This document shows, piece by piece, positions 27,270 to 59,838 of a stretch of 64,000 nt of DNA. The stretch's first letter is position 1. Each line of letters begins with the position of its first letter. A program made the translations under genes and the position numbers. Source of the stretch: Lentzea fradiae (GTDB lineage Bacteria > Actinomycetota > Actinomycetes > Mycobacteriales > Pseudonocardiaceae); the NCBI RefSeq assembly GCF_900100955.1, contig NZ_FNCC01000012.1, positions 62,001 through 126,000 of the forward strand, given 5' to 3'. The notes under the pieces were generated by a model. The model saw only the letters and a list, made by a program, of their open reading frames with translations. It did no database searches and had not been told where the DNA came from.

Positions 27270-27920
27270 TTACTCGCGTTCGCTGTCGAGGTACGCGAGC
27301 ACCGCCAGCACCCGCCGGTTGCCGCTGTCGGTCGGTTGCAGGCCGAGCTTCGTGAAGATGGCGCCGATGTGCTTCTGCACCGAGGACTCGGTGATGTGCA
27401 GACGGTTCCTGATGGTCGTGTTGTCCTGCCCCTGCGCCATCAGCCCCAGCACCTCGCGTTCGCGCGGGGACAGGGTGTCGACCGGGTCGCTGGCGCGGCG
27501 GGTCAGCAGCTGCCGCACCACCTCGGGGTCCATCACCGTGCCGCCGCCCGCGACCCGGACGAGCGCGTCGACGAACTCCTCCACCCGCGAAACCCGGTCT
27601 TTGAGCAGGTACCCGACGCCGCCGGCCGAGCCGGCCATCAGTTCGGAGGCGTAGCTGGTCTCGACGTACTGCGAGAGCACCAGCACCGGCAGGCCCGGTA
27701 CGCGCCGCCGCGCCTCCAGGGCGGCTCGGATGCCCTCGTCGCGGAAGGTCGGCGGCATCCGCACGTCGACGATCGCCACCTCGGGGCGGTGCTCGACCGC
27801 GGCCTCGACGAAGCTCTCGCCGTCGACGACTCTCGCCACCACCTCGAACCCTGCCCGCGACAGCAGCAGCGCGAGCCCTTCGGCGAGCAGGACGTTGTCC
27901 TCCGCGATCACCGCCCGCAC
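27270..27920 (-). CDS. NarL/LuxR-family response regulator
   Basis: A 216-residue regulator. The receiver domain has E7/D8 acidic residues (VIAEDN), phospho-acceptor Asp52 in AIVDVRMPP, and the conserved Lys in GYLLKDRV. A C-terminal LuxR helix-turn-helix starts TLSPREREVLGLMAQG. The GTG start overlaps the kinase 3' end by 13 bases, so the pair is translated together. It presumably controls the neighbouring ABC transporter genes. Confidence 0.93.
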   Translation of the reverse strand: MRAVIAEDNVLLAEGLALLLSRAGFEVVARVVDGESFVEAAVEHRPEVAIVDVRMPPTFRDEGIRAALEARRRVPGLPVLVLSQYVETSYASELMAGSAGGVGYLLKDRVSRVEEFVDALVRVAGGGTVMDPEVVRQLLTRRASDPVDTLSPREREVLGLMAQGQDNTTIRNRLHITESSVQKHIGAIFTKLGLQPTDSGNRRVLAVLAYLDSERE

Positions 27921-29149: not shown

Positions 29150-29171
29150 CCCGGTGCCACCTCCCCGGTGA

Positions 29172-29990
29172 CTATCTTCCCGGATCTGCCGCCGGGGCGA
29201 GCAGGCGCCCACCGCGCAGCGTCTCGGCGTAGGAGAACACGTACCCCGCGCCGATCTCGACCGGTGCCAGCGCCGCGAAGTCCCCGTCGAGCACGTCGAA
29301 CAGGCGCAGGTCGGCCTCGCCCCGCCACACCGGCGTGAACTCGACGCCGGTGACCTCCGACGTCACGAGGTCGCTCACCGGCTCGTCGTCGGGCGTCCAC
29401 GCCGGGAAGTGCCGCGTGTGCACCAACGGCACGGTGTGCAGGAACGGCGGTTCGTCCGCGAGTCCCGTCAGCTCGACGCCGGCCTCGGCCACCCGCCTGC
29501 CCGACACCGAGAGCGACCCGTGCAGGCGTTCCCCCGGTGCGGGCCGCTGTCCGGCGATTCCCACGGGCTTGGGCCGGGTCTGGTGGATCGCGCCGAACTG
29601 CTTCGGCATGCCCTGGATCCAGCCGCGCACCATGGGCACCGGCTGGTCGACCCACGCGTACGGGCAGCGGGCCATGGGCCTGCCGTCGTGGCTACAGCCG
29701 ATCAGCAGCAGGAACTCGGAGAACTGGCAGGTCGCCGGATCGGCGAGCTCGGCGCCGGACTCGGAACACCACTGCCACTCGGCGAACACCGCTGCGGCCG
29801 CGCCCGGATCGGGACCGAGGTCCAGTCCCGGTGGCAGGAACCGGGCGGCGGCCTCCGGGTCCACCCGGTAGTCGACCATGATCACGTCACCGGAGAAGTG
29901 CCACGGCGGCGGCGTGATCATCGCCGACGTGCCGCTCGGCGACAGCGGCAGGCTGTAGCCGGTGGGTGCGGGCAGACTCGTTGCGGTCAT
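29172..29990 (-). CDS. mppR: acetoacetate decarboxylase-like aldolase-dehydratase, MppR/EndR-like
   Basis: A 272-residue member of the acetoacetate decarboxylase superfamily. The region GMPKQFGAIHQTRPK contains the expected Schiff-base lysine. With MppP and MppQ homologues immediately upstream it matches the three-gene set making L-enduracididine in mannopeptimycin and enduracidin producers. There the ADC-like protein (MppR) was found to act on 2-oxo acids and is thought to help form the cyclic guanidine of the 2-oxo precursor. Its ATG overlaps the aminotransferase stop as ATGA. Family is seen directly; the pathway role rests on the gene set. Confidence 0.87.
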   Translation of the reverse strand: MTATSLPAPTGYSLPLSPSGTSAMITPPPWHFSGDVIMVDYRVDPEAAARFLPPGLDLGPDPGAAAAVFAEWQWCSESGAELADPATCQFSEFLLLIGCSHDGRPMARCPYAWVDQPVPMVRGWIQGMPKQFGAIHQTRPKPVGIAGQRPAPGERLHGSLSVSGRRVAEAGVELTGLADEPPFLHTVPLVHTRHFPAWTPDDEPVSDLVTSEVTGVEFTPVWRGEADLRLFDVLDGDFAALAPVEIGAGYVFSYAETLRGGRLLAPAADPGR

Positions 29991-31135
29991 GAGGAAACCC
30001 GTTCGTGTAGTAGCCCGGAGCGCGCCCAGGCCGTGTGGATCGCATGGCCTGCGGAGGCCAGTTCCGCAGGGCGGTTGAGGCTGTAGGAGAGCCGGATGCG
30101 CGGGGCCTGGCCCGCACCGAACCGGGAACCGGCGGCGACCCGGACCCCGCCGGCGGCTGCGGCGGCCACCAACTCTTCCTCCCTCTGCTCCGGACCGAAC
30201 CGAAGCCAGAGGAAGAACCCGCCGTGCGGCGTCGTGACGTCGAGGTCGCCGAGCGCGCCGAGCAACGCGTCACGACGGACGCGCAGCTCGTCGCGCACCC
30301 GGTCCAGGTGGCGGTCGTACTCGCCGTCGGTGATCATCGTGGCCACCGCCAGCGACGCCAGGTGGTTGAGCGAACCGCCGCTGTGGAACAACCCGTGGCT
30401 CAGCAAGCGGGTCACCACGGCCGGTCCGGCGGTCAGCCAGCCCAGCCGCAGGCCGGGACCGATGGTCTTCGAGAAGGTGCCCAGGCGGATCACTCCGTCG
30501 GGATCCAGCTCGGCCAGCGGCGGCGGGAACGCGGCCGCGGACAGGCCCAGCTCCGCGTACGCGTCGTCCTCCACCACGAGCACCCCGCGCCGGGTCGTCA
30601 CCTCCAGGATCTCCCGGCGCCTGCGTTCGGGCACCACCTGCCCGGTCGGGTTGTGGAACGTCGGGTTGAGGTAGACGAACGCCGTGTCCCGCGCGGCCAG
30701 CGCGTCGTCCAGGGCGCCGGGGTCCATGCCGTCGGCGTCCGCGGGAACGTGCGCGAGCCGCAGCCCGCAACTGGTGAGGATCGCCCGCCCGTAGTCGTAG
30801 CCGAGGCGGTCGGTCACGACCGTCCGCCCCGGTGCCGCCAGCGTGGTGCCGAGCAAGTGCAACGCCTGCGAGGTGCCGGCCGTCAGCACCACCCGGCCGG
30901 CATCGGGCAGGTGCGCCCGCCGGGCGAGCGCCTCCCGCAACGGGAGCGCTCCCGCGTTGTCCCCGTAGGCGAGGGCGGCGGATCCGAACTCCTCCAGCGC
31001 CCTCGCGTACGCGTGCCGCACCAGTCCGACCGGTTGCAGGTCCGGACCGGGATAGCCCGGCCCGAGGTCGAGCACGCCGGGCGGGGCCACCTCCTGCACG
31101 ACGCCGAGGCGCCAGGCGGGCGGGAAGAACGTCAC
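29987..31135 (-). CDS. mppQ: PLP aminotransferase, MppQ/EndQ-like
   Basis: A 382-residue fold-type I aminotransferase (class I/II). It has YLNPTFHNPTGQVV (Asn that contacts PLP), VVEDDAYAEL (Asp), the internal-aldimine lysine in LGTFSKTIGPGLRLGWL, and a C-terminal RIRLSY arginine for the substrate carboxylate. In the enduracididine pathway this step would transaminate 2-keto-enduracididine to L-enduracididine. The GTG start overlaps the mppP-like stop (GTGA), and the 3' end overlaps the ADC-like gene (ATGA). Confidence 0.88.
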   Translation of the reverse strand: MTFFPPAWRLGVVQEVAPPGVLDLGPGYPGPDLQPVGLVRHAYARALEEFGSAALAYGDNAGALPLREALARRAHLPDAGRVVLTAGTSQALHLLGTTLAAPGRTVVTDRLGYDYGRAILTSCGLRLAHVPADADGMDPGALDDALAARDTAFVYLNPTFHNPTGQVVPERRRREILEVTTRRGVLVVEDDAYAELGLSAAAFPPPLAELDPDGVIRLGTFSKTIGPGLRLGWLTAGPAVVTRLLSHGLFHSGGSLNHLASLAVATMITDGEYDRHLDRVRDELRVRRDALLGALGDLDVTTPHGGFFLWLRFGPEQREEELVAAAAAGGVRVAAGSRFGAGQAPRIRLSYSLNRPAELASAGHAIHTAWARSGLLHERVSS

Positions 31136-32280
31136 GGGGCCACCAGGACCGACCGCAGCAGCCGGGTGGCCGCCTCCACCGCGGTCGCCGACCGGGACAG
31201 CGCGATCCGCAGGCAGTTCCCGCCCTCCTCCGGACGGGCCCAGTGGAACGGCCCGCACGGCAGCGCGAACAGGTTGTGCTGCCGCAGTTCCTGCCACACG
31301 GCGAGACCCGAGCGGGAGCCCAGGTGCACCCGCTCGACGCTCGCGCGGCTCAGCGGGTCGGGGAAGGTCACCCCCGGCACGCCCGCGAGCCCGTCGCGCA
31401 CGATCGCGCGGTTGGTCGCGATGAACCGGTGCAGGTCGGCGAGACCGCCGTCGGCCGCGTCCTCGGCGAGCCGCTTGATCATCAGCAGCACCAGCGGGGA
31501 GACGCCGAGCAGGATGTCGGAGTAGACCTTGCCGAGCGGCAGCCCGTTGTGCTCGGAGGAGACCAGCCAGCCGACCTTGAGCTCCAGCGTCGGCCAGAGC
31601 TTGCCGGTGTCCTCGATGACCACCCAGCGGCAGCCGCTGTCCCGCAGCACCTCGTAGTGGTCGTAGTGCGCGGCCGGGTCGAACCCCCGGAACGACGTGT
31701 CGAGCGTCAGCACGACATCGTGCCGGGCGCACTGCTCGGCGAGCCGCGCCAGCCGTTCGCGGGAGACGACCTTTCCGGTGGGGTTGTTGGGCGTGGTGAC
31801 GAACAGGCACCCCACCGAGTCGAGGAGCGCCGCGTCGAGGTCGCCGCCGTGCAGCTGCTCCTCCTCGACGGCGACGAGCTCCAGCCCGACACCGCGCAGG
31901 ATGTCCGGGATGTTGTCGAAGGTGGGGTGCACCAACGCGATCCGGTCCGTCACGGTCGCGAGCGACCGGGCGAAGATCTCCATCGCGACCGACGACGAGT
32001 AGCAGCTGAGGACGCGCCCCTCCGCTGCCGGGTACGAGCGCTGGCCGAGGACCTCGAAGTAGGTGCCGATGGCCTCGCGCTCGATCTCGTCGACCGGCTG
32101 CTTCACCGCCTGGGCCCAGAGCTGCGGCAGGTCGTCGACCACCCGCTGCTGGCCGAGGGTCAGGTCCTGGCGGGCGTGGCCGTCCGCGAGGTTCAGGGAA
32201 CTGCTGAGGGCCAGGAACTCGAACTGGGTGAGGTTGCCCAGCTCGTCGTCGGTGACCACTGGTGGCCGAGTGTCCTGCAT
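31132..32280 (-). CDS. mppP: PLP-dependent L-arginine oxidase, MppP/EndP-like
   Basis: A 382-residue protein very similar, from memory of the family, to MppP of Streptomyces wadayamensis, a PLP enzyme that hydroxylates and deaminates L-arginine to 4-hydroxy-2-ketoarginine using O2. Shared stretches include TQFEFLALSSSLNLADGHAR, RVLSCYSSSVAMEIFARSL, ALVHPTFDNIPDILRG, FVTTPNNPTGKVV, LTLDTSFRGFDPAAHYDHYE and the PLP-lysine segment VIEDTGKLWPTLELKVGW. Length agrees with MppP (about 376). It is the first of three overlapping genes and so the entry step of enduracididine formation. I rate this as one of the most diagnostic genes in the window. Confidence 0.92.
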   Translation of the reverse strand: MQDTRPPVVTDDELGNLTQFEFLALSSSLNLADGHARQDLTLGQQRVVDDLPQLWAQAVKQPVDEIEREAIGTYFEVLGQRSYPAAEGRVLSCYSSSVAMEIFARSLATVTDRIALVHPTFDNIPDILRGVGLELVAVEEEQLHGGDLDAALLDSVGCLFVTTPNNPTGKVVSRERLARLAEQCARHDVVLTLDTSFRGFDPAAHYDHYEVLRDSGCRWVVIEDTGKLWPTLELKVGWLVSSEHNGLPLGKVYSDILLGVSPLVLLMIKRLAEDAADGGLADLHRFIATNRAIVRDGLAGVPGVTFPDPLSRASVERVHLGSRSGLAVWQELRQHNLFALPCGPFHWARPEEGGNCLRIALSRSATAVEAATRLLRSVLVAP

Positions 32281-32316
32281 GTGCTCACGAACTCCTTAAC
32301 GGGTGGTGGAAGCAGG

Positions 32317-33564
32317 TCAAGACGCTTGCCTGCCGGGCGCCGGGAAACGGCGCAGGGTGGGGCTGAGGGTGGCTCCGACGGCGATCACCGCGGCCGTTGC
32401 CGCGCACGCCATCAGGCCGGTCGTGCCGTCGCCCGTGCCGGCGAGCGCGCCGCCGGCGATCGGGCCGAGCGCACCCGCGGCACCGGTGAAGAGACCGACC
32501 ATGCCGCTGAGCCGCCCGCGCAGCTCGTCGACCGTGACGGACATCTGGTAGGTCATCACCGTCGTGACGGTGACGGGCATGAACATCGCGACCACGCCGA
32601 GCACCACCCCCAGCAGCACGCCGCTGGGGGTGAAGGCCATGACGAGGATCAGCACGGCGGCGAGCCAGGAGAAGCCGATGATGATCACCGACGCGGGCAG
32701 CACGGCGTGCAGCCGGGCGGCGATCGCGGCGCCGATCAGACCACCGGCACCGAAGCAGGCCATCATCAGGCCGATCTCGCCGGGACCGACCTGGTCCTCA
32801 CCGGAGACGGCCAGCACGATGACGACCAGCGCGCTGAACACCAGCTGCACCAGGGCGACCCACACCAGTGTCGTCCTGATAGGACGGTGCCGCCACACCC
32901 AGCGCAACCCGACCGGAGCGCCGTCGCCGTCTTCGTCCTCCGCCACCGGGGCCGCACCCTTCGGCAGGCGGAGCGTCAGCAACGCGATGCAGGACACCAG
33001 GAGCAGGGCCGCGTTCAGCGCGAACGGCAGCATGTGGTCGATGGTGAACAGCACGCCGCTGAGCAACGGGCCCGCGAGATTCGCGATGTACGGGCGCGCG
33101 GTGTTGCGCGCCACGGCCTGGGAAAGCTGTTCCGGCGCGACGACGCTCGGCAGCGCGGCGTCCTCCGCGGGACCGAACACCGACACGAGCAGTCCGTCGA
33201 TCGCCGCCACCACGAGGATGTGCGGCAACGAGTAGGCGTCGAAGTACAGCGCCACGGCGACGCTGCCCATCGCGACCGCCCGCAGGATCTCGCACACGAC
33301 CATCACGGTCTTGCGGTCGTAGCGGTCCGCGAGGAACCCCGCGGGCACCGAGCCGATCAGCAGCGCCACCGCCATGGTGGTCGCGACCAGGCCGATCTCC
33401 ACCGCCGACCGCGTCGTGGCGAGGATCAGCAGCGGAAAACCGATCAGCGCGAGCTCGCTGCCCAGTTCGGAGACGAGCCTGCTCATCCACAGGACGTTGT
33501 AGTCGCGGTTGCGGGACAACGGGACCACGGGCCGTACCGCGTTTCCCGCCTCGGTCGCCGTCAC
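32317..33564 (-). CDS. MFS transporter (probable exporter of the right NRPS set)
   Basis: A 415-residue major facilitator protein with about 12 membrane segments, the 2-3 loop motif PAGFLADRYDRKTVM, and an N-terminus (PLSRNRDYNVLWMSRLVSELG) typical of the MFS drug/peptide efflux group. The GTG start overlaps the stop of the serine hydrolase (GTGA), and mppP follows after 36 bases, so it is embedded in the biosynthetic operon. A role in exporting the peptide is inferred from position. Confidence 0.9.
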   Translation of the reverse strand: MTATEAGNAVRPVVPLSRNRDYNVLWMSRLVSELGSELALIGFPLLILATTRSAVEIGLVATTMAVALLIGSVPAGFLADRYDRKTVMVVCEILRAVAMGSVAVALYFDAYSLPHILVVAAIDGLLVSVFGPAEDAALPSVVAPEQLSQAVARNTARPYIANLAGPLLSGVLFTIDHMLPFALNAALLLVSCIALLTLRLPKGAAPVAEDEDGDGAPVGLRWVWRHRPIRTTLVWVALVQLVFSALVVIVLAVSGEDQVGPGEIGLMMACFGAGGLIGAAIAARLHAVLPASVIIIGFSWLAAVLILVMAFTPSGVLLGVVLGVVAMFMPVTVTTVMTYQMSVTVDELRGRLSGMVGLFTGAAGALGPIAGGALAGTGDGTTGLMACAATAAVIAVGATLSPTLRRFPAPGRQAS

Positions 33565-34741
33565 TGTGCTGTTCCCCCGTCTGGTGGTGGTACTGGCCGG
33601 GCGGTCCGGCCACCGAGCTGGAGCAGGCGTCCCGGCAGGAAGCGCCCAGGTGTGGCGGGACTTCCGGGCACGGTGAAGGTCAGGTCGCGGTGGCAGGTCA
33701 CGGTGACGCCGGGCCCGCCGTCGATCACGAGGCCGAGCCGTCCGCCGCCGTGGTGGGTGACGTCGACGAGCGCGTCACCGTTGGCGTACCGGCCGGTCAG
33801 CTCCGCGGCCTGGGCCGCGAAGGCTTCCGGTCCGTCCGGCACCGGCCGGTGGTCGGCCACGGCGATCCCGTCCGCGCGCAGGTCGTCGACGAGGTCCTGC
33901 CACAGCGCCGAACCGGTGGCAGCGTTGGTGGTCAGCGCGACCACCGTCCCGGAGTGCGGTTCGAACCGCAGGTGGCACGACGTGCCGTCGCCGGTGCCGT
34001 CGTGGCCGAACCAGGTCCGGCCCTCGGCGCGGTACACCGCCCAGCCGAGACCCCAGCCGTCGGCGAGGCCGTACGGGCCTGCCGGGTGTCCGGCCAGGTG
34101 GTCGCGGCGCATCGCGGCGTTGTGCTGCGACGCGAACCGGGCCAGGTCGGCCGCGCTCAGTGCGAGCCCGCCCGCCGGTGCCTCCAGTTCCGGCAACGCC
34201 TGCTCGGCGATGACCCTCGCGCCGCTGTGCCCCGGCACCGGCTTGCGCACGGTGGGGCCGGTCACGAAGGACGGCGTGATTCCCAGCGGCCACAACAGGA
34301 TCGACTCGACCGCGTCCCACCAGTTGACGCCGGTGACGTCCTCGGCGAGGTGCCCGGCGAGGACGTAGCCCGCATTCGAGTAGGAGAACAGCTCGCCCGG
34401 CCGGTGCACGAGGTCGTCCGGCCTGCAACGGGCGGCCCAGCGCCGCCGCGAGATCTTCTCCGGCTGCTCGACGTTCGCCGCGAGGCCCGCGGTGTGGGTG
34501 AGCAGCCGGCGCGGTGTCACCGGTAGCTTGGGCAGTTCCTCGTCCAGGCCGAGGTCTCCATCGTCGGCGAGCGTCAGCACGAGTGCCGCGGTGAACGGTT
34601 TCGTCAGCGATCCCAGCGGGAACGCGGACTCCTTCGTGACACCGTGGCATGCCTCGGCGACCTCGCCACCCTGCTGGATCACCAGCTGGGCACCCGGCAC
34701 ATCGTGCTTGCGCGCCAACCGTTCCAGCAACTCGGAGGGGT

Positions 34742-34745
<4 letters not shown>
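33561..34745 (-). CDS. serine hydrolase, penicillin-binding-protein-type thioesterase (SurE/MppK-like)
   Basis: A 394-residue class C beta-lactamase-fold serine hydrolase. Nucleophile motif S46-L-T-K49 ([10 protein letters not shown]), Tyr122 in SYSN, and a third motif H248-D-G. A C-terminal beta-rich extension (about 300-390) resembles the lipocalin-like tail of PBP-type thioesterases. No signal peptide, so it is cytoplasmic, unlike true beta-lactamases. It directly follows an NRPS that ends in an epimerase without a thioesterase, and its GTG overlaps that stop (GTGA). Known enzymes in this setting (SurE, MppK in mannopeptimycin) take the D-terminated linear peptide from the last carrier domain and cyclise it head to tail. 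That role is strongly suggested here. Confidence 0.85.
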
Positions 34746-46933
<12,188 letters not shown>

Positions 46934-46946
46934 TTCGTCCCCCACG

Positions 46947-49900
46947 TCAGTTCCGGCCGCTCGCGCCGAGCGCGAGGTCGTTCTCGAGCTTCGCGAGCAC
47001 CAGGTCGACGACCCGTTCCGCGAGCCCCGCCACGGTCGGCGCGTCGAACAGGTCGCGCGGCGTCACCTCGACGCCGAACGTCCGCCGCACCCGCGACATC
47101 AGACGCAGGCTGCTGATCGAGTCGCCGCCGAGCGCGAAGAAGTCGTCGTCCGCCCCCACCTCGTCGCGGCCGAGCACCTCGGCCCACTGCCGGCACAGCG
47201 CCTCCTCGGTCGGGGTGACGGGAGCCCGGTAGGCGGCGGTGAGCACGTCGGCGCGCGACGGCCGGGGCAGCGCCCGGCGATCGACCTTGCCGTTCGGGGT
47301 GAGCGGCAGCCTGGGCAGCCGCACGAACGCCGACGGCACCAGGTAGTCCGGCAGCGACTTCGCCAGGTGCCTGCGCAGGGTGTCGCCGACGGGTTCGACG
47401 GCGTCCGGCGCCGAAACCACGTACGCGACCAGTTGCCTGGTCCCGGACTCGGTCCTGGGCGCGGTGACCACCGCCTCGGCGACCAGCGGGTGTCTGACGA
47501 GCGTGTTCTCGATCTCACCCGGTTCCACCCGGAACCCGCGGATCTTGACCTGGTCGTCGACGCGCGCGACGAACTCCAGCAGCCCGTCCGGCCGCCACCG
47601 CACCAGGTCGCCCGTCCGGTAGAGGCGTTCACCGGGAGCGCCGATCGGGTCGGCGACGAACCGTTCCGCCGTCAGGTCGGGCCGGCCCGCGTACCCGCGC
47701 GCCAGGCCGGCGCCGCCGATGTAGAGCTCCCCGGTCACACCGGCCGGCACCGGAGAGAGCGTGGTGTCGAGCACGTGCAGCCGCACACCGGGAATCGGTT
47801 CGCCCAGTGGCACGCTGCGCTGTCCCGCACCTGTCCTCGCGGGGAACAGCGTCACCGCGAGAGTGGACTCCGTCGGGCCGTAGATGTTGACGAACGTGCG
47901 GCCCGGCGCCCATGCCTCGACGAGCTCGACCGGGCAGACGTCACCACCGGTGCCGACGCACTTCAGCCCGTCGAGCTCGGCCGGGTCCAGCGCGGCCAGC
48001 ACGGCCGGCGGCAGCGAGGCGACCGTGATGCCGTCCGCGCGCAGCTGCCTCGCCAGTGCCGCCGGGTCGTGCAGCGCGTCCGGGCCGGAGAGCACGAGCG
48101 TGGCTCCCGCGACCAGGGTGGAGAAGATGTCCTGCACACCACCGTCGAAGCTCATCGAGCAGACCTGCAGGACGCTGCTGTTCTCGGCCAGGCCGTACGT
48201 CTCGTTGATCGCCCGCACGACGTTGAAGAGCGACCGGTGCTCCACCATGACACCCTTCGGCGTGCCTGTGGAACCTGACGTGAACATCACGTACACCAGG
48301 TCTCGATCGTCACCCTCGACGTCCGGTGCGGTCGCCGGAAGTGCCGCGACAACCTCACGTTCACGGTCGAGCAGCACCACGTCCGCATCGGACTCGGTGA
48401 ACCGGTCCGCTTGGTCCTGCAACGTCAGCAGCACACGGGGCCGGGTCTCGGCGAGCATCGTGGCCAGGCGGTCGGCCGGGTAGTCGGGATCCAGCGGCAC
48501 GTACGCGCCACCAGCCTTGAGCACCGCGAGCACGGCGACGACCAGGTCAGTGCCGCGCGGCACCGACACCCCGGCGAGCACGTCCCTGCCCACGCCCAGC
48601 GCGGACAGGTGGTGCGCGAGCCGGTTCGCCGCGGCGTCCAGTTCGCCATAGGTCGTGGCGACACCGTCGTGCACCACGGCGACGGCGTCCGGCGCGGTCG
48701 CGGCACGGGCGCTGATCACCTCGTGCAGACGGCCGCCGGTCCGGGCAGGCCCCGTGCTCGCCCAGCCGGTCAGCCGGGTCCGCTCGGCCTCGGTGAGCAC
48801 GGGCAGCTCGCCGACCCGTCCGCCACCGGACGCGATCGCCTCGAACAACGTCCGCAGGTGCCCGGCCATCCGCCGCACGGTGGCCGGGTCGAACAACGCC
48901 GGGTCGTAGTGCAACAACAACGACAGCGCGTCCTCGGGATAGACGACCACGTTGAGCGGGTAGTTGGTGCCGCTCGTCGAGCTTATGTCCACAATGGAGG
49001 GGACGTCGCCGGCGGCGGGTTCGACCGGGTAGTTCTCGAACACCACGATGCTGTCGAAGAGGTCCCGGCCGCGCGGCAGGTCGCACCACTCCACGATCTC
49101 CGTCAGCGAGACGTGGTCGTACTGCCGGGCCGCCGCCTGCGCCGCCTGCTGCTCGCGCAGCCACGTGACGACGTCGGCGTCCGGGTCGACGTCCACCCGC
49201 ACCGGGAGGGTGTTGATGAACATGCCCGCCATCTGGTCGACGCCGGCGAGCCCGGCCGGACGCCCGGCCGTGGTCGCGCCGAAGCACACGTCGGCCTCAC
49301 CGCTGTAGCGCGACAACAGCAGCGCCCACACGCCCTGGACGACCGTGTTGATCGTCACCTGCGCCCGCTTCGCCATCCCGTACACGCGGGTGGTGAGCTC
49401 CTCTGGCAGCTTGACCACCAGCCGTGCCGACGACACGGTGCGGTGCAGGCCGGACTTGGGCCGGTCGAACGGAAGCGGCGTGGCCGCCTCGAAGTCACCG
49501 ATCTCACGACGCCAGTGCTCACGCGCGGCGGTGAAGTCCTGGTTCGCCAGCCATTCCACGTAATCGCGGTACGGGCGCCTGGGAACGGGAACGGGCTCGT
49601 CCGCACACTCCCCGAGCACCTCGGCGAGCACCTGCATCCCGCTCCAGCCGTCGAGCAGGGCGTGGTGGAACGTCCACACCAGACGAACCCTGGTGTCGGT
49701 CAGGCGGATGATCGCGACCCGCACCAGCGGCGCCTCGCCGAGATCGAGCCCTGCCTTCCGGTCCTGGTCCAGGTAGTGCGCCACGGCGGCGTCCAGCTCG
49801 GCTCCGCCCAAGTCTCGCCAGTCCAGCTCGGACACCGGGATCCGGGCATGCTCGTACACGGCTTGGTACGGCCTCGGCAGGTCCTCCCAGACGAAGGCGG

Positions 49901-52900
49901 TGCGCAGCACCGGGATCCGGTCGGCCACCCGCTGCCACGCGCCCGCCAACGCCACCGGGTCGCGCACGCCGTCCAGGACCGCGGAGATCTGCTCGAAGTA
50001 CGCGGTGCCGCTGTTGTCCATCAGGCTGTGGAACAGCATGCCGTTCTGCGTGGGCGTCAACGGGTAGACGTCCTCTACGTCCCGGCGCACGCCGACGATC
50101 TCGTCCACGGTGGACTGGTCGAGCTCCGCCAGCGGGAAGTCGGAGGGCGTGCGCCCGCCGTTGCCCGGCGTGAGGCAGTGCACCACGGCGGCGGCGAGCT
50201 CGGCCACGAAGTCGTCGGCGAGCCTGGTGATCGTCCGCTCGTCGTGCACGTTCTCCGAGTAGTACCAGCGGAACTCCAGGCTTCCGCCGAGCACCGTGCC
50301 GACGACGTCGACGAGGTGCGGCCTGATGTCGCCGGGGTGCTGGTGCAGCCCGATCTCCGAGACGGTGTCGTCGAACTGGCCGAGGTAGTTCAGCACCACC
50401 GGCGGGTCCAGTTCGGGCACCCGGCCCGCGTCGCGCAGCACGCCGTAACCCAGTCCGCGCCGGGGAACCGCGCGCAGCCGTTCCTTCACGGACTTCAGCG
50501 CGGAACCCCAGTCACCGCCCGCCTCGACCACGACCGGGAACCGCGTCGTGAACCAGCCGACGGTGCGCGTGACGTCCAGGTCGTCGAACAGCTCCTCGCG
50601 GCCGTGTCCCTCCATGCCCAGCGGCACGCGCTGCTGGCCGGTCCACGCCGACAGCACACGCGCGAGTGCCGTCACAAGCACGTCGGCGACCTCGGTCCGG
50701 TACGCCGCGGGCACCTCGCGCAGCAGCTTCCCGGTGGTGTCCGCGTCGAGCCCGGCACGGACGATCCTGGTGCTCTCCACCGTGTTCGACCCGGTTCCGT
50801 CCACGGGCAGGGTCACGTCGGCGCCGCTCAGCCCGGACCAGTGCGCCAGTTCGTCGTCGAAGCCACCCGCCGCCGCGTGACCGGTGAGCCTGCTCGCCCA
50901 CGCCGCCGGTGAGTCGGTGGCGGTGCCGAGCACGATCCGTTCGTCGCGCCGCGCCTGCTCGATCGCGCTGCGCAGGTCCTCGATCAGCACGCGCCACGAC
51001 ACGCCGTCCACGGCCAGGTGGTGCACCGCGAGCGTCAAGTTCCCCTGTGCCAGCACAGCTCCCAGCAGCCTGCCCTCGGTGATGTCGGTCGAGGCCGAGG
51101 CGATGGCGACGGCTCGGTCCGGGTCCGTCTCCTCGACGAACTCGACGCTCGCGGTGGTCTCCTCCTGCCACCACACGCCGTTCTCCGCACCGAACCGCGT
51201 GCGCAACGCACCGTGGTGTGCCACCAGAGCCTCGACCGCTACGCGGACGACGGCGGGCGCGACGTCCGGCAGTGCCAGCGTCACGTGCTGGTGGAAGGGC
51301 GCGGACGGGGTGAAGGTGTCGAAGAAGAACCGCTGGATCGGTGTCAGCGGGGCGCGGCCCTCGACCCGGACGGACCGCGTGGCGACCGGTTCCCCGGTGG
51401 CCACGAGTTCCAGCGAGGAGATCGTCGGCCGCTGGAACAGGTCCCGCGCGCTCAGCCGCAGCCCGACATCGCGTGCCTTCGCCACGACCCGCATGGCGAC
51501 GATCGAGTCGCCGCCCAGGGTGAAGAAGTTGTCCTCGACGCCGACCCGCGGCACGCCGATCGCGTCGGCCCAGATCCCGGCGAGCACCCGCTGCACCTCC
51601 GTGCGCGGCTCGACGTGCCGGTCGGCGGCGGCCTCGGGTTCGGGCAGCGCGGCGTGGTCCACCTTCTCCCGCGACGTGAGCGGGAACTCCGGCAGCACGA
51701 CGACCGTGGCCGGGACCATGTACTCCGGCAGCACACCGCGCACGTGGTCGAGCAGCGCGGAGACCTCCGGGTCCGCCCCGACCGGCACGACGTACCCGAT
51801 GAGGCGCACGCGTCCCCGCGCGTCCTCCCGCGTCACGACGACGGCCGCCGCGACCTCGGGGTGCTCGACGAGCACGACCTCGACCTCACCGGGTTCCACG
51901 CGGTAGCCGCGGATCTTCACCTGGTTGTCGACGCGGCCGAGAAAGTCCAGTTCACCATCGGGCAACCGGCGCACGAGGTCACCGGTCCGGTACAGCCGTG
52001 CGTCCGGATCGGCGGAGAAGCGGTCGGGCACGAACCGGGTCGCGGTCAGCTCGGGCCGGTTGACGTAACCGCGGGCGACGCAGACACCGCCGATGTGCAG
52101 TTCTCCGGGCACGCCGACCGGCAGCTGGTTGCCGTGCGGGTCGAGCACGTGCACCGTCGTGTTCGCGATCGGCACGCCGATGGTCGGCAGCACACCGGGT
52201 TCGACTGCGCCCTCCGGCTCGACCTCCTTCCCGGTCGCGAGAACCGTCGCCTCGGTCGGGCCGTAGTGGTTCACCATCAGGAACCCGAACCCCGCGCTCG
52301 GTCGGCGGCGCAGTACGTCACCGCCCGCGATCACCACCCGCAGGCTCGTGCCGACGTGGCCGAGCTGGTCGAACACTGCGTCAACGCGCGGCGTGATGAT
52401 CACCGACAGCGTGACGTCCCGCTCCGCGATCCAGCGGACCAGCACGGCGGGGTCGTCCAGCACGTCCTGCGTCGCCACCGCGACCGAGGCGCCGGCGGTC
52501 AGGGCCGGCCAGAGCTCCAGCGCGACGGGGTCGAACCCCTGCGCAACGAGGTGCGACGACCGGTCGCGCGGCGTGACGTCGTAGAACTCGTGGTACCAAC
52601 GGCAGAGGTTGGTCAGCGAGCGGTGCTCGACCATCACGCCCTTGGGCCTGCCGGTTGATCCCGAGGTGTAGACGACGTACGCGACGTCGGTCGACGTGAC
52701 ACAGGTTTCCGGTGTCGTGGAGGGGTTCTGCGCGATCGTGGCCCAGTCCTCGTCCAGCCGGACGACCTCGACGTCCACTTCGGACATGCGTGCGGCGACG
52801 GAGCGCTGGGTCAGCACCACACGCGCGCCGGTGTCCGCGACGACGAACGCGAGCCGGGCCGCCGGGCTGTCCGGGTCGAGCGGCACGTACGCGCCACCGG

Positions 52901-55900
52901 CCTTGAGCACGCCCAGCAGCGCCACCACGAAGTCGGCACCGCGGTCCAGGAACACCGGCACGGGTACGTCCGGGCCGACGCCGAGGGAGACGAGGTGGTG
53001 CGCGATGCGGTTGGCCCGTTCGTCGAGCTCCCGGAAGGTCAGCACCCTGTCCCCGCAGACCACCGCCACGGCGCCGGGGTCGCGTTGCGCCTGCAGGGCC
53101 ACGAGTTCGTGCACGGGTACAGCGAGATCGTGGCTCGCGGCGGTGTCGTTCCACTCCGCGAGCTGCCTGCGTTCGCCCGCTGTCAGCACGGACAGCTCCC
53201 CGACCGGCAGGTCCGGCGTGGTGGTGAGCTGGTCCAGCAGCACGTGCAGGTGGCCCGCCATGCGTTCGATCCGCGCGGCGTCGAAGAGGTCGGTGTTGTA
53301 CTCGACCATCACGTCCATGCCCTCGTCGTGCTCGGTGAACTCGACGGTCAGCTCGAAGATGGACGACACGTGCGGCAACACCCGCGGCTCGACCCGCGCA
53401 CCCGCGAACCGCAGCGGCTCGGCCGGGGTGTTCTGCAGCACCACCAGCGCTTGCACCAGCGGCGTGCGGCTCGGGTCGTGCTCGGGGCGCACCTCCGCGA
53501 CGACGCGCTCGAACGACACGTCCTGGTGAGCGAACGCCTCCAGCACGGTCGTACGCACGTGCCCCAGGAACTCCGTGAACGGCAGCGCGGCATCCACTGT
53601 GGACCGAAGCGCGACCGTGTTGATGAAGCAGCCGATGAGCTGTTCGAACTCGGCCCGGCCGCGACCGGCCACAGCCGTGCCGACCACCACGTCGCGCTGA
53701 CCGCTGTAGCGGGCGAACAGCACCTGGCAGGCGGCCACGAGGACGGTGAACACCGTCGTCCCGTGCGCCTCCGCGAGCCACCCGAGCCGTGCGGTGAGGC
53801 CGGCGGGCAGCTGGAACCGGTGTTCGGCGCCCGCGGAAGTGCGCAGCGCGGGCCGCGGCCGGTCCGTCGGGAGCTGCAGCGGTGCCGCGGCCTCCAGCGT
53901 CCGGCGCCAGTAATCCAGTTGTCCCGCGGTCTGCGCGGATCGCTGCCACAGCGCGAAGTCCGCGTAGCGCGCCGGCAGTTCCCGAACGCGGACCGTGCGC
54001 CCCTCGATCGCGGCGGCGTACCGCTCCCCCAGTTCGCCCGCGAGCACACCCATCGACCAGCCGTCGATCGCGATGTGGTGCACGCTCAGCACGAGAACGT
54101 GCTCCTCGTCGGCGATCCTGATCAGGCGGACCCGCCAGACCGGCCCGGTGCCGAGGTCGAACGGGGTGGAGACCTCCTGGTGCAGCAGGCGGTCCAGCTC
54201 GGCGGCGTCCTGGCCGCGCAGATCGGTCACCGTGATGGCGGCCTCGTTGCGGTGGATCACCTGGCGCGAGCCGCTGTCCACCCTGGTGCGCAACGGTTCG
54301 TGCGCCTCGACGACCTCGCGCCACGCCTGGTCGAGCGCGGCGGCGTCGAACGGGCCGGTGACGCTGTAGGCGAAGTGCACGTTGCTGTCGACGGCGTCTC
54401 GGTCGAGCTCGTGGGCGAGCCACAGGCGTTCCTGTGGGAACGACAACGGGAACACCGAACCGGGCGTGTGGTGCGGTGTCTCGGCGACAGGAGTCGCGGG
54501 ACGTGCGGCGATCTTCGCCGCGAAATCCGCGAGCGTCGGCGCGTCGAAAAGGTCGGCGACGGTGAGTTCGACGCCGAACCGCGCGAGGATCCGGGCCAGC
54601 ACGCGCACGGCCAGCAGTGAGTCGCCACCGAGCGCGGGGAACGCGTCCCCGGTGCCCACCCGGTCGACCGGCAGCACCTCGGCCCAGATCTCGGCCAGCA
54701 CGGCCTCGGTCTCGTTCTCGGGCGCCTGGTGGCCCGACTCTGCCCCGCGGCGCGGCTGCGGTAGTGCGGCCCGGTCCACCTTTCCGTTGGGGGTCAGGGG
54801 GAAGCGGTCCAGCAGCACGAACTCCGATGGCACGAACGGATCCGGCAGCACTCCGGCCAGCCGGTCCCGCAGCAGCGCCTGCGTGAGGACCGCACCGCTG
54901 TCGGGGACGACGTAGGCGACCAGGCGGGCGCCCTCCACGTCGTCGCGGCGCACCACGACGACCGCGTCCGCGACGCCTGGACAACGCCGCAGCCGCGTCT
55001 GCGTCTCGCCGGGCTCGACGCGGAAACCGCGGATCTTGACCTGGTCGTCGGTCCGGCCCAGGAACTCGATCACGTCGGCGTCGTCCACCCGCACCAGGTC
55101 ACCGGTGCGGTACAGCCGCTCGCCCGACGGTGCGGCGACGAACCGGGCGGCGGTGAGATCGGGACGGTTGAGGTAGCCGCGCGCCACACCATCGCCACCG
55201 ACGTAGAGCTCGCCCTCGGACGCCGGTCGCAGCTGCTCGTCGAGCACCCGCACGGTGGTGCCGGCCAGCGGCGTGCCGATCGGCACCGGCCCGGTCACCT
55301 CGGTGATCCGGTGGCAGGCGGTGAAGGTCGTGCCCTCGGTCGGCCCGTAGCCGTTGACGAGCGCCAGGTCCGGGAACCGTTCCAGCACCCGCGCGCAGTG
55401 GCCGGGTGAAAGCACGTCGCCGCCCGCGAGCAGCAGGCGCAGGCCACCGAACACGGTCACGTCGGCGTCCACGACCTCGTGGAACAGGCCCGCCGTCAGC
55501 CAGAGCACGCTGACCTCGAAACCGGACAGGAACCGGCCGAGCTCGGCCACCGACACCGCTCCGGGCGGTCCCACGGCGAGCCGCGCGCCGTTCGTCAGCG
55601 CACCCCACACCTCGAACGTCGACGCGTCGAACGACACGGACGCCAGGTGCGCCACCACGTCGTCAGCGGTCAGTCCGGCGTATGCCTGTCCCTGGACAAG
55701 CCGCACGATCCCGCGGTGCTCGACCAGCACGCCCTTCGGCCGCCCGGTGGAGCCGGAGGTGTACATGACGTACGCGAGGTCGTGGCCCTCGACGTCGGTC
55801 TCGAGAACCTCGGCCGGGTGCTCCGCGATCAGGTCAGCGTCGGTGTCGAGGCAGACGATCTCGGTGGCACCGTGTGGAATCCGGTCGCGCAGCCGTTGTT

Positions 55901-56321
55901 CGCTCAGCACGAGCGGCGCGGCGGTGTCGGCGAGCATGAACGCCAGCCGTTCCGCCGGGTAACCCGGATCGAGCGGGAGGTAGGCACCGCCGGCCTTGAG
56001 CACGGCCAGTTCGGCGACGACCAGGTCGGTGCCGCGGTCGAGGCACAGGCCGGTGACCACGCCAGGTCCGACGCCGCGGCCGGCCAGGAACCGCGCCAGC
56101 CGCGAGGCCCGCTCGTCCAGTTCGGCGTAGGTCAGGCTCTGGCTGGTTGAGGACACCGCGATCGCCCCGGGCGTGCGCCGAGCCCACTGCTCGAACAACT
56201 CGTGCACGACCGTGGGTATGACGGTATCCACGCTGCCGCTCCGTTCTGCCGGATTCCCCGAGAAGAATGTGCGGGCGCCACGACCCCTGCGGGACCCGCT
56301 CACCGAAGTCTTGTTCGGCAT
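46947..56321 (-). CDS. NRPS, A-T-C-A-T-E-C-A-T (loading plus two modules)
   Basis: A 3124-residue synthetase. Domains, approximate: A1 40-520 ([14 protein letters not shown]), T1 545-615 ([11 protein letters not shown]), C2 635-1060 (HHIAIDGWS), A2 1085-1570, T2 1590-1660 ([10 protein letters not shown]), E 1680-2100 ([11 protein letters not shown]), C3 2140-2560 ([28 protein letters not shown] type), A3 2590-3030, T3 3045-3110 ([12 protein letters not shown]), then a short acidic/Leu-rich tail ([14 protein letters not shown]) that may dock to the next synthetase. Codes read by hand: A1 D-A-F-W-L-G-G-T-F (valine), A2 D-P-L-I-I-G-H-V-L, A3 D-G-Q-S-G-G-I-L-A (least certain). Starting without a C domain, it initiates the chain; position 2 becomes D. 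ATG 56321 follows GAGGTG; GTG 56327 is possible. The downstream NRPS begins 13 bases after its stop. Confidence 0.95.
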
Positions 56322-56623
56322 CGACACCTCGGCAACGTGTTTAAGCTGAGGCTGAAAACAACTCCTGAGAGCGACTGTGCGAGCTGGGAGTTTCGGCAGT
56401 GGCTAAAGGAGGTGGAATCCTGGGCCGTCCTGCGCAAGGCTGGCACAGCCGGGCAATGGCGCCGTTCGAAGTCCTGCACGCGGCAACGCCCCAGATCGAC
56501 CGGACACGTGTTCCGGCATCGCGGGCGAACATTTGGCAAACGCCGAGCGAGTTCTCGACGCCCGCCGGTTCCACCGTTTCCGAAATCGGAGTCGCGGCGC
56601 CGCCGCGCGACAGGAGGCTGTCC
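56322..56623. promoter_or_regulatory. divergent promoter region, NRPS operon / methyltransferase operon
   Basis: About 300 bases between the two oppositely transcribed halves of the right-hand set. It must hold both promoters. I see no clear -10/-35 pair or repeat comparable to those near the SARP gene. Confidence 0.5.
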
Positions 56624-57613
56624 ATGACCAGCACGACCACGCGGGCGACCGCGCAGATCTTCAATTCGGCGGTGGCCGCGTCCGCCATCGCCGCGGCATG
56701 GGAACTGGGGGCACTCGACGAACTGCGGGAGGCGGGCACGCTGAACGTGCCGGAGTTCGCCGCGGCAAACGACCTGCACGAGCAGTCCACACAGGGCCTG
56801 TTCGTCGCGCTGGCGAGCGTCGGGGTGGTGCGGCGGGACGGGTCGACCGTGACCGCCGGCGAACAGTTCGACGCCGTCTACCAGGCAAAATCGCTGTTCC
56901 ACTGGCTCATGAGAGGATCGGCGCCGCTGTTCGCCGAGATCCCGTCGGTGCTGCGCAACGGCAACCGCGAGGGCGCCTACTACCGGCGTGACGCGAAGGC
57001 CATCAGCACCGCGTGCCGGGAGGCGAACACGCAGTTCTACGACCCGGTCTTCTGGCCGGTCTTCGAAGGTCTCGATTTCACCCCGGCCGCGGTCGCCGAC
57101 CTCGGTTCGGGAAGTGGTGAGCGACTTCTGCAAATGCTCAAGCGCCACCCCCGTGCACGTGGTATCGGAATCGACATCGCGAGTCCCGCGATCGACATGG
57201 CACGACTGGAAGCGAACCAGTCCGGCATGGGTGACCGGCTCACGTTCATCGAGGCCGACGTGCGGCAGCTCGAACCGTCACCGGAATTCTCCGACGTCGA
57301 TCTGCTGACCTGTTTCATGATGGGTCACGACTTCTGGCCGAGGGAACGCTGCATCCCCTCGCTGCAGCAGTTGCGCAAAGCATTCCCGTCCGCCCGCAGG
57401 CTGCTGCTGGGCGACAACGTGCGCACCACCGACGTGCCGGACGACGAAATCCCGGTGTTCACCCTCGCGTTCGAATTCGGCCACGCGATGATGGACGTGT
57501 ACCTGCCCACGCTGGACGAATGGCTGGATGTTTTCGACGAGGCCGGCTGGAAGTGCGTCGAGGCGCACCTCGTCGACAGCCTCGCCGGGGCTGTCGTGTT
57601 CGAGCTGAGCTGA
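56624..57613 (+). CDS. mppJ: SAM-dependent 2-oxoacid C-methyltransferase, MppJ-like
   Basis: A 329-residue class I methyltransferase that closely resembles MppJ, the mannopeptimycin enzyme that methylates the beta carbon of phenylpyruvate. Shared stretches include SAIAAAWELGALDELRE, DLHEQSTQGLFVALASVG, KSLFHWLMRGS, the SAM motif VADLGSGSGERLLQM, DLLTCFMMGHDFWPRERC and FEFGHAMMDVYLPTLDEW. In MppJ, His/Asp residues in these last two blocks bind a non-haem iron that positions the 2-oxo acid; the GHD and FGH residues are kept here. Product would be 3-methylphenylpyruvate or a close analogue. An N-terminal dimerisation helix domain (about 1-100) precedes the SAM domain. ATG follows CAGGAGG. Confidence 0.9.
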   Translation: MTSTTTRATAQIFNSAVAASAIAAAWELGALDELREAGTLNVPEFAAANDLHEQSTQGLFVALASVGVVRRDGSTVTAGEQFDAVYQAKSLFHWLMRGSAPLFAEIPSVLRNGNREGAYYRRDAKAISTACREANTQFYDPVFWPVFEGLDFTPAAVADLGSGSGERLLQMLKRHPRARGIGIDIASPAIDMARLEANQSGMGDRLTFIEADVRQLEPSPEFSDVDLLTCFMMGHDFWPRERCIPSLQQLRKAFPSARRLLLGDNVRTTDVPDDEIPVFTLAFEFGHAMMDVYLPTLDEWLDVFDEAGWKCVEAHLVDSLAGAVVFELS

Positions 57614-57620
57614 GGCACCG

Positions 57621-58676
57621 ATGACCGTCCTGCTCCGCCCCGACCTCGGCGCGCTCCCCCTCTACCAGCAGCTGCCCTCCACCGCGCGGGTCCAGCTGTC
57701 GAACAACGAGACCGCCTTCCCGCCGTTGCCGCGGGTGGCCGCCGCGCTCACGGAAGGGCTCGCGCACATCAACCGGTACCCACCGGTGAGCCCGCACGCG
57801 GTGGCCACGCACCTGGCCGGGCACCTCCGCGTTCCCGCCGGGTCCGTCGCCGTGGGCGCCGGATCCGCCACCTTGCTGCTACAGCTGATGCAGGCGGTGG
57901 TGCACGGCCCGAGCAGCATCGTGTACGCCTGGCGTTCGTTCGAGGCATACCCGATCCTCGTGCGCGTGGCGGGAGCGGAACCGCGACCCGTGCCGCTGAC
58001 CGGCGACCTGGTGCACGACCTCGACGCCATGCTGGCAGCGGTGACGCCGACGACGCGCATGATCATCGTCTGCAACCCCAACAACCCCACCGGGACCGCG
58101 CTGCACCGCGACGCCTTCGCGAAGTTCCTCGCCGCCGTGCCCGAACACGTCGTCGTGGTGCTGGACGAGGCATACCACGAGTTCGTCACCGACCCGGACG
58201 TCCCGGACGGGCTGGAACTCGTGCGCGAGGCGGCCGGGCGCGGCAACCTCGTGAGCCTCCGGACGTTCTCCAAGGCATACGGCCTGGCGGGCCTGCGCAT
58301 CGGGTACTGCGCGGGCCCGATCGACCTGATCCAGGCGGTCACGAAGGTCGGCGTCCCGTTCAGCGTCAGCACCCTGGCCGAGACCGCGGCCCTGATAAGC
58401 CTCGACTCCGCGGAAGAACTGGCCGAGCGCTGCCGTCTGGTGCGCACCGAGCGCGACCGGGTCGGAGCGGCGCTGCACGCGCTCGGCCACGCGTTCGTGC
58501 CGTCGCAGGGCAACTTCCTGTGGCTACCGCTGGCGGACCGCGCGGCGGAGTTCGCCGCCCACAGCATGTCCGACGGCGTGATGGTGCGCCCGTTCGCCGG
58601 CGAGGGCGTCCGGGTCACCATCGGCAGCCCCGCGGACAACGACGCCTTCCTCGCGGTCGCCCGCACCTTCGTCTGA
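57621..58676 (+). CDS. histidinol-phosphate/aromatic aminotransferase family (HisC-like)
   Basis: A 351-residue PLP aminotransferase of the HisC branch. It has [36 protein letters not shown], the PLP lysine in [17 protein letters not shown], and a C-terminal VRVTIG arginine. Actinobacterial HisC paralogues often transaminate aromatic 2-oxo acids. Lying 7 bases after the MppJ-like methyltransferase, it most likely converts the beta-methylated arylpyruvate to the beta-methyl amino acid used by the NRPS. A housekeeping histidine role is unlikely, since no his genes are near. Confidence 0.88.
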
Positions 58677-58692
58677 GCCAAAGGAGATTCCG

Positions 58693-58899
58693 ATGACCGG
58701 TAACCCCTTCGACGACCCCGACGGCACCTTTCTCGTCCTGGTGAACTCGGCGGGCCAGCACTCGCTGTGGCCGCGGGCGATCCCGGTACCCGGCGGGTGG
58801 ACCGAGGTCCACGGGCCAGGCACCAGGCAGGAGTGCCTCGACTACGTGTCGGGCCACTGGACCGACCTTCGTCCGCGTGAGGCCGCCGCACGGGCGTGA
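58693..58899 (+). CDS. MbtH-like NRPS chaperone (second copy)
   Basis: A 68-residue MbtH protein with the full signature: [33 protein letters not shown] and GHWTDLRP. It is the last gene of the methyltransferase-aminotransferase operon, 16 bases after the aminotransferase and preceded by AAAGGAGA. Likely partner of the adenylation domains of the two right-hand NRPSs. The stop is 3 bases from the stop of the convergent ArsR-like gene. Confidence 0.95.
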
Positions 58900-58902: not shown

Positions 58903-59838
58903 TCACTCACCGGCCGCCGCTTCCATGAACTGGTACGCCGTGTACTCCAGCAGCGCGGTGCCGAGCGGCGTCACGCTGTGCAGCACCGTGTTCCGGTTGC
59001 GGCGGCTGGTGATCAGGCCGGCCTCCCGCAACACCGACGTGTGCTGGCTGATGCTGGCCGACGAGATGTTCAACCGTTCGGCCAGCTCACCGGTGGTACA
59101 ACTCTCCACCAACTCCTGCAGCACCGCCGCCCGGGTCTTCCCGACCAGCGCCGCCAGCGCCTGCTCACCGCGTTCGGTGACGTCCCAGAAAGCCGCGGCG
59201 GCGTTCGTGGCCGCGGTGACGGGCGGCGCGGCGAACACGAGAATCGGACTGGACTCGGCCCACTCCGCACCGATCAGCACGGCGGCAGCGTTGTCGTACA
59301 GGAACAATGAGGGCGCCAGCAACAACCCGCGTCCACCGAGATGAACGTCGACATCCCGCTCGTGCGGCACCTCAAGCACCGAAGAACGCCATCGCACCTT
59401 GGGATGCAACGTCCCCAGCAGGCGCTCAACACCTCCGGTCATGGCCAACCGCCCCCGGACGTCGCGCACGGTCTCCAGGTACCCGCGCACCTGCCGCCAG
59501 TAGGGCGACACGGCCACCCGCCCGAACCCCTGGGCAGCCTCCATCACTTCCTCACGACTGAGCCCGACCCTGCCCAGCGCTCTCTCGTCGGCCTTGAACC
59601 CTCCGTCCACCAACCACAGCAGGTCAGGAACCGGCCGTAGCACCTGCAACATCCGTTCGACGCGAACGGCACGTCGACCAAGACGCTCACCGACGCGGTC
59701 GCGCCAGATCCCGAAGAACCCACCGCCGCGCGTTCGTCCGAGCGACTCCATGGCGAACACCGTCTCAGCACCCATGCCCAGCGTCGCCGAGACTCTCACC
59801 CTCGCGAGATCCTCGCTGGTGAAATGAATCCTCTGCAA
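58903..59838 (-). CDS. ArsR-family winged-helix regulator with N-terminal extension
   Basis: A 311-residue regulator. The C-terminal part (about 225-300) is an ArsR-type winged helix: RAAVLQELVESCTTGELAERL, NISSASISQHTSVLREAGLI, SRRNRNTVLHSVTPLG. The longer N-terminal part is of a type common in actinobacterial ArsR-like proteins whose ligand is unknown; no metal-binding cysteine motif is evident. It is convergent with mbtH and ends the right-hand set, so it may regulate it or be an unrelated neighbour. Confidence 0.85.
   Translation of the reverse strand: MQRIHFTSEDLARVRVSATLGMGAETVFAMESLGRTRGGGFFGIWRDRVGERLGRRAVRVERMLQVLRPVPDLLWLVDGGFKADERALGRVGLSREEVMEAAQGFGRVAVSPYWRQVRGYLETVRDVRGRLAMTGGVERLLGTLHPKVRWRSSVLEVPHERDVDVHLGGRGLLLAPSLFLYDNAAAVLIGAEWAESSPILVFAAPPVTAATNAAAAFWDVTERGEQALAALVGKTRAAVLQELVESCTTGELAERLNISSASISQHTSVLREAGLITSRRNRNTVLHSVTPLGTALLEYTAYQFMEAAAGE

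Follow-up and report, generated by a model that had tools for sequence, protein, structure and literature searches.

The gene cluster and its predicted product

The window analysed here is a 64-kb stretch of the 8.5-Mb genome of Lentzea fradiae. It carries a nonribosomal peptide synthetase (NRPS) gene cluster, on the minus strand except for 56624-58899 (plus strand), which probably directs the synthesis of a cationic head-to-tail cyclic hexapeptide. The peptide would be built in the manner of mannopeptimycin but from other residues and without decoration, with the substrates assigned from homologous modules. The predicted product is cyclo(L-Val, D-X, L-beta-methyl-aromatic, D-End, L-Thr, D-End), where End is enduracididine. 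An earlier examination of the DNA without database searches (the sequence-only reading) had given the same D/L pattern, and the positions of the epimerization (E) domains and the types of the condensation (C) domains agree in pointing to it. The prediction offers a concrete structure to look for among the rare enduracididine products, listed in a 2016 review as enduracidins, minosaminomycin, an ascidian indole metabolite, mannopeptimycins, and teixobactin (PMC5238550). Cell-wall targets are reported for enduracidin, mannopeptimycin, and teixobactin (PMC5238550).

In the proposed pathway, MppP, MppR, and MppQ would convert L-arginine to L-enduracididine. An MppJ-type enzyme would methylate an aromatic 2-oxo acid at its benzylic carbon, and the adjoining aminotransferase would turn the methylated acid into a beta-methyl aromatic amino acid. 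NRPS 1 would start with Val (no C or E domain, hence L), followed by D-X2 and the L-beta-methyl aromatic residue 3. NRPS 2 would append D-End 4, L-Thr 5, and D-End 6. A penicillin-binding protein (PBP)-type cyclase would take the hexapeptide off the last carrier domain by linking D-End 6 to L-Val 1, and a major facilitator superfamily (MFS) pump would export it. The probable role of a histidine kinase, a response regulator, and an ABC transporter is to sense envelope stress or to relieve it. We infer that the peptide is cyclized, exported, and active.

Domain architecture of the two synthetases

Pfam finds three adenylation (A), three C/E-type, and three thiolation (T) domains in NRPS 1, and three, five, and three, respectively, in NRPS 2. 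A profile scan gives the order A-T-C-A-T-E-C-A-T for NRPS 1 and C-A-T-E-C-A-T-C-A-T-E for NRPS 2. The GGDS motif is present in all six T domains. Both genes are open over their full length with these domains, and the gene cluster is intact-looking. The sequence-only reading had placed six modules on two synthetases in this order, with C domains of the D-accepting type after each E and of the L-accepting type elsewhere. Pfam and the profile scan agree on the former, and the latter is borne out by a tree built from the C and E domains of 11 clusters, in which the 30 E domains form a single clade (support 1.0). C3 and C5, each following an E domain, group with D-type C domains, and C2, C4, and C6 with L-type ones. 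The tree has exceptions in other clusters. C6 of G095 (a Saccharothrix genome) is found among the L-type domains although an E domain precedes it, and C3 of G950, G1085, and G209 is found among the D-type domains although none does.

In these last three genomes, module 2 of NRPS 1 lacks E while C3 is D-type, as would be expected if module 2 once had an E domain and lost it on becoming Gly-loading. The position of C3 in the mannopeptimycin-type lines hints that mannopeptimycin biosynthesis may have lost its module 2 epimerase in this way.

Adenylation codes and residue assignment

The codes read by alignment are DAFWLGGTFK (module 1), DPLVIGHVLK (2), DGQSGGILAK (3), DLGAAGAVDK (4), DFWNVGMVHK (5), and DLSVAGAVDK (6). 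They are the same in the window and in two relatives, Lentzea atacamensis DSM 45479 (G006) and Lentzea sp. NBRC 102530 (G018), save one V/I exchange in module 5. The codes of modules 1 and 5 are textbook codes for Val and Thr, and they fit the earlier placing of Val first and Thr fifth.

Calibration was made on three Streptomyces mannopeptimycin-type clusters (G950, G1085, and G913). An MppJ-like gene is found at E <= 1e-60 in 28 of 392 Streptomyces genomes, and 19 of these 28 neighbourhoods were read. The three clusters have the lines A-T-C-A-T-C-A-T and C-A-T-E-C-A-T-C-T-E together with MppP/Q/R and a cyclase, and their codes fit Ser, Gly, DGWTGAILSK, Tyr, and DLSVMGAVDT. The G913 methyltransferase is identical to crystallised MppJ at 302 of 328 residues (counted on the alignment), and G950 has genes for TauD (beside mppP), PMT, GT2, and two acyltransferases. 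These clusters are the mannopeptimycin line, whose residue order we take to be Ser, Gly, beta-methylphenylalanine, D-Tyr, End, D-End. Therefore, DGWTGAILSK marks beta-methylphenylalanine and DLSVMGAVDT marks enduracididine.

The A domains of modules 4 and 6 fall in a clade (support 1.0) made up of exactly the tree's 26 DLxxxGxVD-type A domains, module 5 of the mannopeptimycin-type lines included. Both modules look enduracididine-specific. The earlier claim of an enduracididine-containing peptide is thus upheld by the codes, but two modules rather than one appear to load the residue. It is improbable that module 4, module 6, or both load arginine or another guanidine residue, leaving fewer than two End in the product. 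Such loading would be compatible with an End assignment made by homology only, and with the greater distance of module 4, whose nearest outside match is 51-52% identical against 55-57% for module 6. Against it stand the presence of MppP/Q/R in the cluster and the well-supported grouping of both modules with the End modules of MppR clusters.

Module 3 is nearest to module 3 of the mannopeptimycin-type lines (56-58% identity) and groups with them in the A-domain tree. This clade consists of nine DG-type domains, G209 DGLTAAVVAK, and G385 DAFTGAVVAK. The codes are thus compatible with two End and one beta-methyl aromatic residue, where the sequence-only reading had needed enduracididine and an aromatic residue. 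They also offer rules for A domains: DLxxxGxVD[K/T] for End, and DG[W/Q]-type or DAFVVGV-type for a beta-methyl aromatic residue. Assigning X2 was rejected since module 2 has no calibrated relative.

In module 3 of the three Lentzea lines, Trp239 is replaced by Gln and Thr278 by Ser. Position 239 is one at which Phe codes differ from Tyr codes. Therefore, beta-methyltyrosine, or another enlarged beta-methyl aromatic residue, deserves a place as the less probable but serious alternative for residue 3 of the same undecorated line with two D-End. The methyltransferase would then act on 4-hydroxyphenylpyruvate and Gln239 would open the module 3 pocket, both having changed together. In agreement with this, DGQSGGILAK is found in 3/3 Lentzea lines versus DGW in the six other DG-type domains, and the Lentzea methyltransferases (three) carry GDNVR where the eight others aligned carry DATR. 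A dedicated aromatic-type aminotransferase is also found only in this Lentzea group among the clusters read (elsewhere, one weak 35% match and one weak 31% partial match). However, Gln239 is not the Ser of Tyr codes, and the calibrated product of the module 3 clade is plain beta-methylphenylalanine. If this alternative is true, the product would be a naked mannopeptimycin-like scaffold from Lentzea with an enlarged beta-methyl aromatic residue.

Precursor supply

The genes for precursor supply agree with the proposed hexapeptide. MppR scores 435.6 bits against the curated NCBIfam cut-off of 380 and matches crystallised MppR at 400 bits. MppP matches its crystallised namesake at 551 bits (Table 1), and for the MppQ gene the MppQ family is the best-scoring one. 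For the methyltransferase, the next non-MppJ protein reaches 77 bits (MppJ, 440), and both histidines that we take to be the MppJ iron ligands are kept. For the aminotransferase, the putative phenylalanine aminotransferase 4r2n (317.7 bits) is well ahead of the next chain (128.6). These matches sustain what had been proposed from the sequence, namely that MppP/Q/R homologues provide L-enduracididine and that an MppJ homologue and an aminotransferase provide a beta-methyl aromatic residue.

In MppR clusters, the methyltransferase and a beta-methyl-aromatic code occur together. For each cluster some 40-80 kb was read, and the named MppR loci (20 kb each) were left out of the count. Among 19 MppR clusters whose A codes could be read, such a code is found in all nine with the methyltransferase (DG type in eight, DAFVVGV type alone in G026, both in G166) and in 0/10 without it. 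Fisher's exact test gives p = 1.1e-5, which is overstated, as the nine represent about five lineages. Three of the nine were found through the methyltransferase; in the 16 clusters chosen by MppR alone the counts are 6/6 and 0/10. The DG-type code alone was rejected as a beta-methyl marker, since the DAFVVGV type is carried by G026 and by the C-A-T genes that neighbour MppJ-like genes in three genomes (G1140, G846, and G840).

Several points weigh against the proposed product. The mannopeptimycin residue order used for calibration is an assumed one, and the A-domain tree was made by FastTree as a quick run. In modules 2, 4, and 6, the reading of position 278 is ambiguous. The module 3 code differs from the calibrated one at 4/10 positions, and the clusters of G209 and G385 lie inside the module 3 clade without having a methyltransferase. 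The co-occurrence needs both code types to be counted, as G026 has a methyltransferase with DAFVVGVSVK only. The link loosens outside MppR clusters, where six of the 19 Streptomyces MppJ-like neighbourhoods have either code and 13 have neither. X2 is not assignable, with codes of the nearest relatives of module 2 diverging (DALVIGHVLK, DPEMSGQVVK, and DVGYLIAVAK). MppQ, at 475.6 bits, is below its cut-off of 540. Finally, no description of the product was found among the papers, largely open-access ones, listed for a Lentzea or enduracididine hexapeptide.

Predicted release of the peptide

The GTG start of the standalone PBP-type thioesterase gene overlaps the NRPS 2 stop codon. Its motifs SLTK, YSN, and HDG correspond to SxxK, YxN, and HxG of serine enzymes, and its nearest PDB chains are the PBP cyclase Ulm16 and 6ksu, presumably SurE. 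Neither NRPS has a thioesterase (TE) domain. Module 1 lacks E and module 6 has it. The residues that PBP-type cyclases couple are an L residue at the N-terminus and a D residue at the C-terminus (PMC7459860; PMC11735501). The module order, L first and D last, fits this demand. By the features tested, the cluster belongs with the PBP-type-thioesterase (SurE-type) cyclic peptides, cyclization itself being predicted. The sequence-only reading was right to expect a cyclic product as far as a candidate enzyme is present, but it had overlooked this release enzyme. A cryptic cluster, or one whose main product is a linear hexapeptide, is unlikely in view of the conservation in three species and the intact cyclase motifs.

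Comparison with mannopeptimycin and other systems

The Lentzea cluster and the mannopeptimycin-type clusters (G950, G1085, and G913) have in common MppP/Q/R, an MppJ-type methyltransferase, a PBP-type (MppK-like) cyclase, an MFS pump, an ArsR-like regulator, and an MbtH-like protein. Both have two trimodular NRPSs, a beta-methyl aromatic residue at position 3, and enduracididine near the C-terminus. In contrast, the Lentzea cluster has an E domain in module 2, an A domain of its own in module 6, and an extra aromatic-type aminotransferase, and its predicted residues (Val, D-X, beta-methyl aromatic, D-End, Thr, D-End) differ from the mannopeptimycin order given above. Three tested features of mannopeptimycin biosynthesis are lacking. 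None of the six matches to TauD, the type of the MppO-like hydroxylase, in the genome is on the contig of the cluster. Mannosyl- and acyltransferases are not found in the cluster, where each of the 15 genes in 23851-59838 has another assignment. The mannopeptimycin line with its five A codes is not matched. The cluster works like mannopeptimycin biosynthesis but fails in hydroxylase, mannosyl-/acyltransferases, and line architecture with residues. This is what had been claimed earlier: shared enzymes, other residues, and no hydroxylase or glycosyltransferase genes. Nor do the NRPSs have high identity to the known cluster type compared; they are 45-48% identical to mannopeptimycin-type NRPSs in the best aligned stretches.

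Note that the type of locus is already on record by label. Among its lower-similarity clusters, a 2022 survey names 'mannopeptimycin' for four species: L. atacamensis, L. pudingi, L. waywayandensis, and L. deserti (PMC9120177). This label for L. atacamensis, together with the genes and architecture in common, would suit an ordinary mannopeptimycin cluster that has lost its decoration genes and makes the aglycone. Such a cluster is highly improbable here, since the codes at positions 1, 2, 4, 5, and 6, the extra E in module 2, the A domain in module 6, and the NRPS identity of 45-48% all speak against it. The earlier statement that no compound with this pattern is known stands in that none was found in the literature searched, where six code strings also have no match as text; yet orthologous loci in two Lentzea and the survey label are on record.

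Other systems share parts of this design. Desotamide-type peptides differ in residues, and no enduracididine pathway is known in their families. Those with SurE/Ulm16 cyclases have a standalone PBP-type cyclase, no TE, and an L-first, D-last order (PMC7459860). Cyclofaulknamycin (flk) has a cyclic-guanidine residue, trimodular NRPSs (FlkS has the domain order of NRPS 2), and the MppK homologue FlkO, but makes capreomycidine via a VioC-type hydroxylase and has methyl- and mannosyltransferase genes (PMC8399532). Jomthonic acid requires an MppJ homologue for its beta-methylphenylalanine product, but its line is a polyketide synthase (PKS)-NRPS with one NRPS module (PMC6117699). Likely relatives of the jomthonic acid cluster among those read carry the other code, DAFVVGVIWK. 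The G1140 C-A-T gene adjoins a PKS whose domains are KS, two AT, KR, and two carrier domains, the pattern described for JomP1 (PMC6117699). The product of a CONKAT-seq study targeting MppR was rejected as a match: omnipeptin is an unrelated 11-residue depsipeptide (PMC6710260).

Distribution of related clusters

Of the 18 Pseudonocardiaceae genomes whose MppR is over the cut-off, 10 have the exact six-module architecture, and in two (G106 and G099) no such NRPS is found within the 80 kb read. A relative of the cyclase is near 20 of 36 named MppR loci (within the 20 kb read of each). Therefore, this kind of cluster is common, and the comparison reveals a wider, mostly unread family. Apart from the three Lentzea lines, the Saccharothrix cluster G095 is the only one read that has End-type codes at both position 4 and position 6; it contains an additional C domain. 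L. pudingi (G015) has the same domain architecture, MppP/Q/R, methyltransferase, and PBP-type cyclase, with the codes DVWHFSLIHK, DALVIGHVLK, DGWTGGILAK, DASTVAAVCK, DLSIMGCVDT, and DAWQFGEIGK and an NRPS identity of 45-48%. Unlike the window cluster, it has no aromatic-type aminotransferase match within 80 kb.

Another MppR cluster, in G166, has ten A domains (three End-type, two DG-type, and one DAFVVGV-type) and an MppJ-like gene, and probably makes a larger enduracididine peptide. Another six-module type of MppR cluster, which lacks a methyltransferase, recurs in G040, G225, G377, G187, G178, and G146. It has an Asn-like module 1, an End code at position 5, and two unusual codes, DGWNVCGVCK at position 4 and DT-DMGFVDK at position 6.

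Extent and surroundings of the cluster

The whole unit from the FtsX-type permease to the ArsR-like regulator (23851-59838, about 36 kb; Table 1) is also found in G006 and G018, with all genes 79-96% identical. Eight flanking open reading frames (ORFs; 12905-23689 and 61063-64000) match nothing above 28% in 75-kb stretches of these relatives, the left-hand NRPS set of the window being counted apart; it matches those stretches only as an NRPS (38-39%). Therefore, the unit includes the histidine kinase, the response regulator, and the ABC transporter. The genes of the span proposed earlier, 29172-58899, are all present, but the conserved span extends farther on both sides.

Table 1. Genes of the conserved unit in the window
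Product	Position	Strand	Evidence
FtsX-type ABC transporter permease	23851-26517	-	Pfam FtsX; 87% identical in both Lentzea relatives
ABC transporter ATPase	26414-27184	-	Pfam ABC_tran; 94-96% in relatives
LuxR-type response regulator	27270-27920	-	Response_reg and GerE in ORF 27270-28883; 94% in relatives
Sensor histidine kinase	27908-29212	-	Pfam Sensor, HisKA_3, HATPase_c; 85-90% in relatives
MppR, enduracididine cyclase	29172-29990	-	TIGR04460 over cut-off; crystallised MppR
MppQ, aminotransferase	29987-31135	-	TIGR04461 best family, below cut-off
MppP, pyridoxal phosphate-dependent arginine hydroxylase	31132-32280	-	Crystallised MppP, 551 bits
MFS exporter, MppL-like position	32317-33564	-	Pfam MFS_1/MFS_3
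Standalone PBP-type thioesterase/cyclase (predicted)	33561-34745	-	Pfam Beta-lactamase; Ulm16 and 6ksu closest PDB chains; SLTK, YSN, HDG
NRPS 2: C-A-T-E (D-End), C-A-T (L-Thr), C-A-T-E (D-End), residues predicted	34742-46945	-	Pfam, profile scan, A codes, tree
NRPS 1: A-T (L-Val), C-A-T-E (D-X), C-A-T (L-beta-methyl aromatic), residues predicted	46947-56327	-	Pfam, profile scan, A codes, tree
MppJ-type S-adenosylmethionine methyltransferase	56624-57613 (ORF from 56399; likely start 56624)	+	MppJ, 440 bits
Aromatic-type aminotransferase	57621-58676	+	PRK03321 over cut-off; 4r2n, 317.7 bits
MbtH-like protein	58693-58899	+	Pfam MbtH
ArsR-like regulator	58903-59838	-	Pfam HTH_20/HTH_5; 91-92% in relatives

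To the right of the unit there is an IS3-type transposase (61063-61914). Reading of the sequence alone points to another transposase-like ORF, which starts near 62915 and runs to the end of the window. Neither has a match in the stretches of the two relatives. A large BTAD/NB-ARC/TPR regulator (12905-15880, minus strand) lies between the two NRPS sets of the window and has no match beside the cluster in the two relatives. The separate left-hand set (1-12445, minus strand) has an A-T-C-A-T NRPS with the codes DPIRAEEVGK and DALHMGGIFK, a methylaspartate mutase E chain, a glutamate-synthase/FMN-type protein, a class II tRNA-synthetase-like protein, a class IV aminotransferase, and an MFS pump. 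The mutase chain (MutE) suggests a beta-methylaspartate-type precursor, and the tRNA-synthetase-like gene is unusual in such company.

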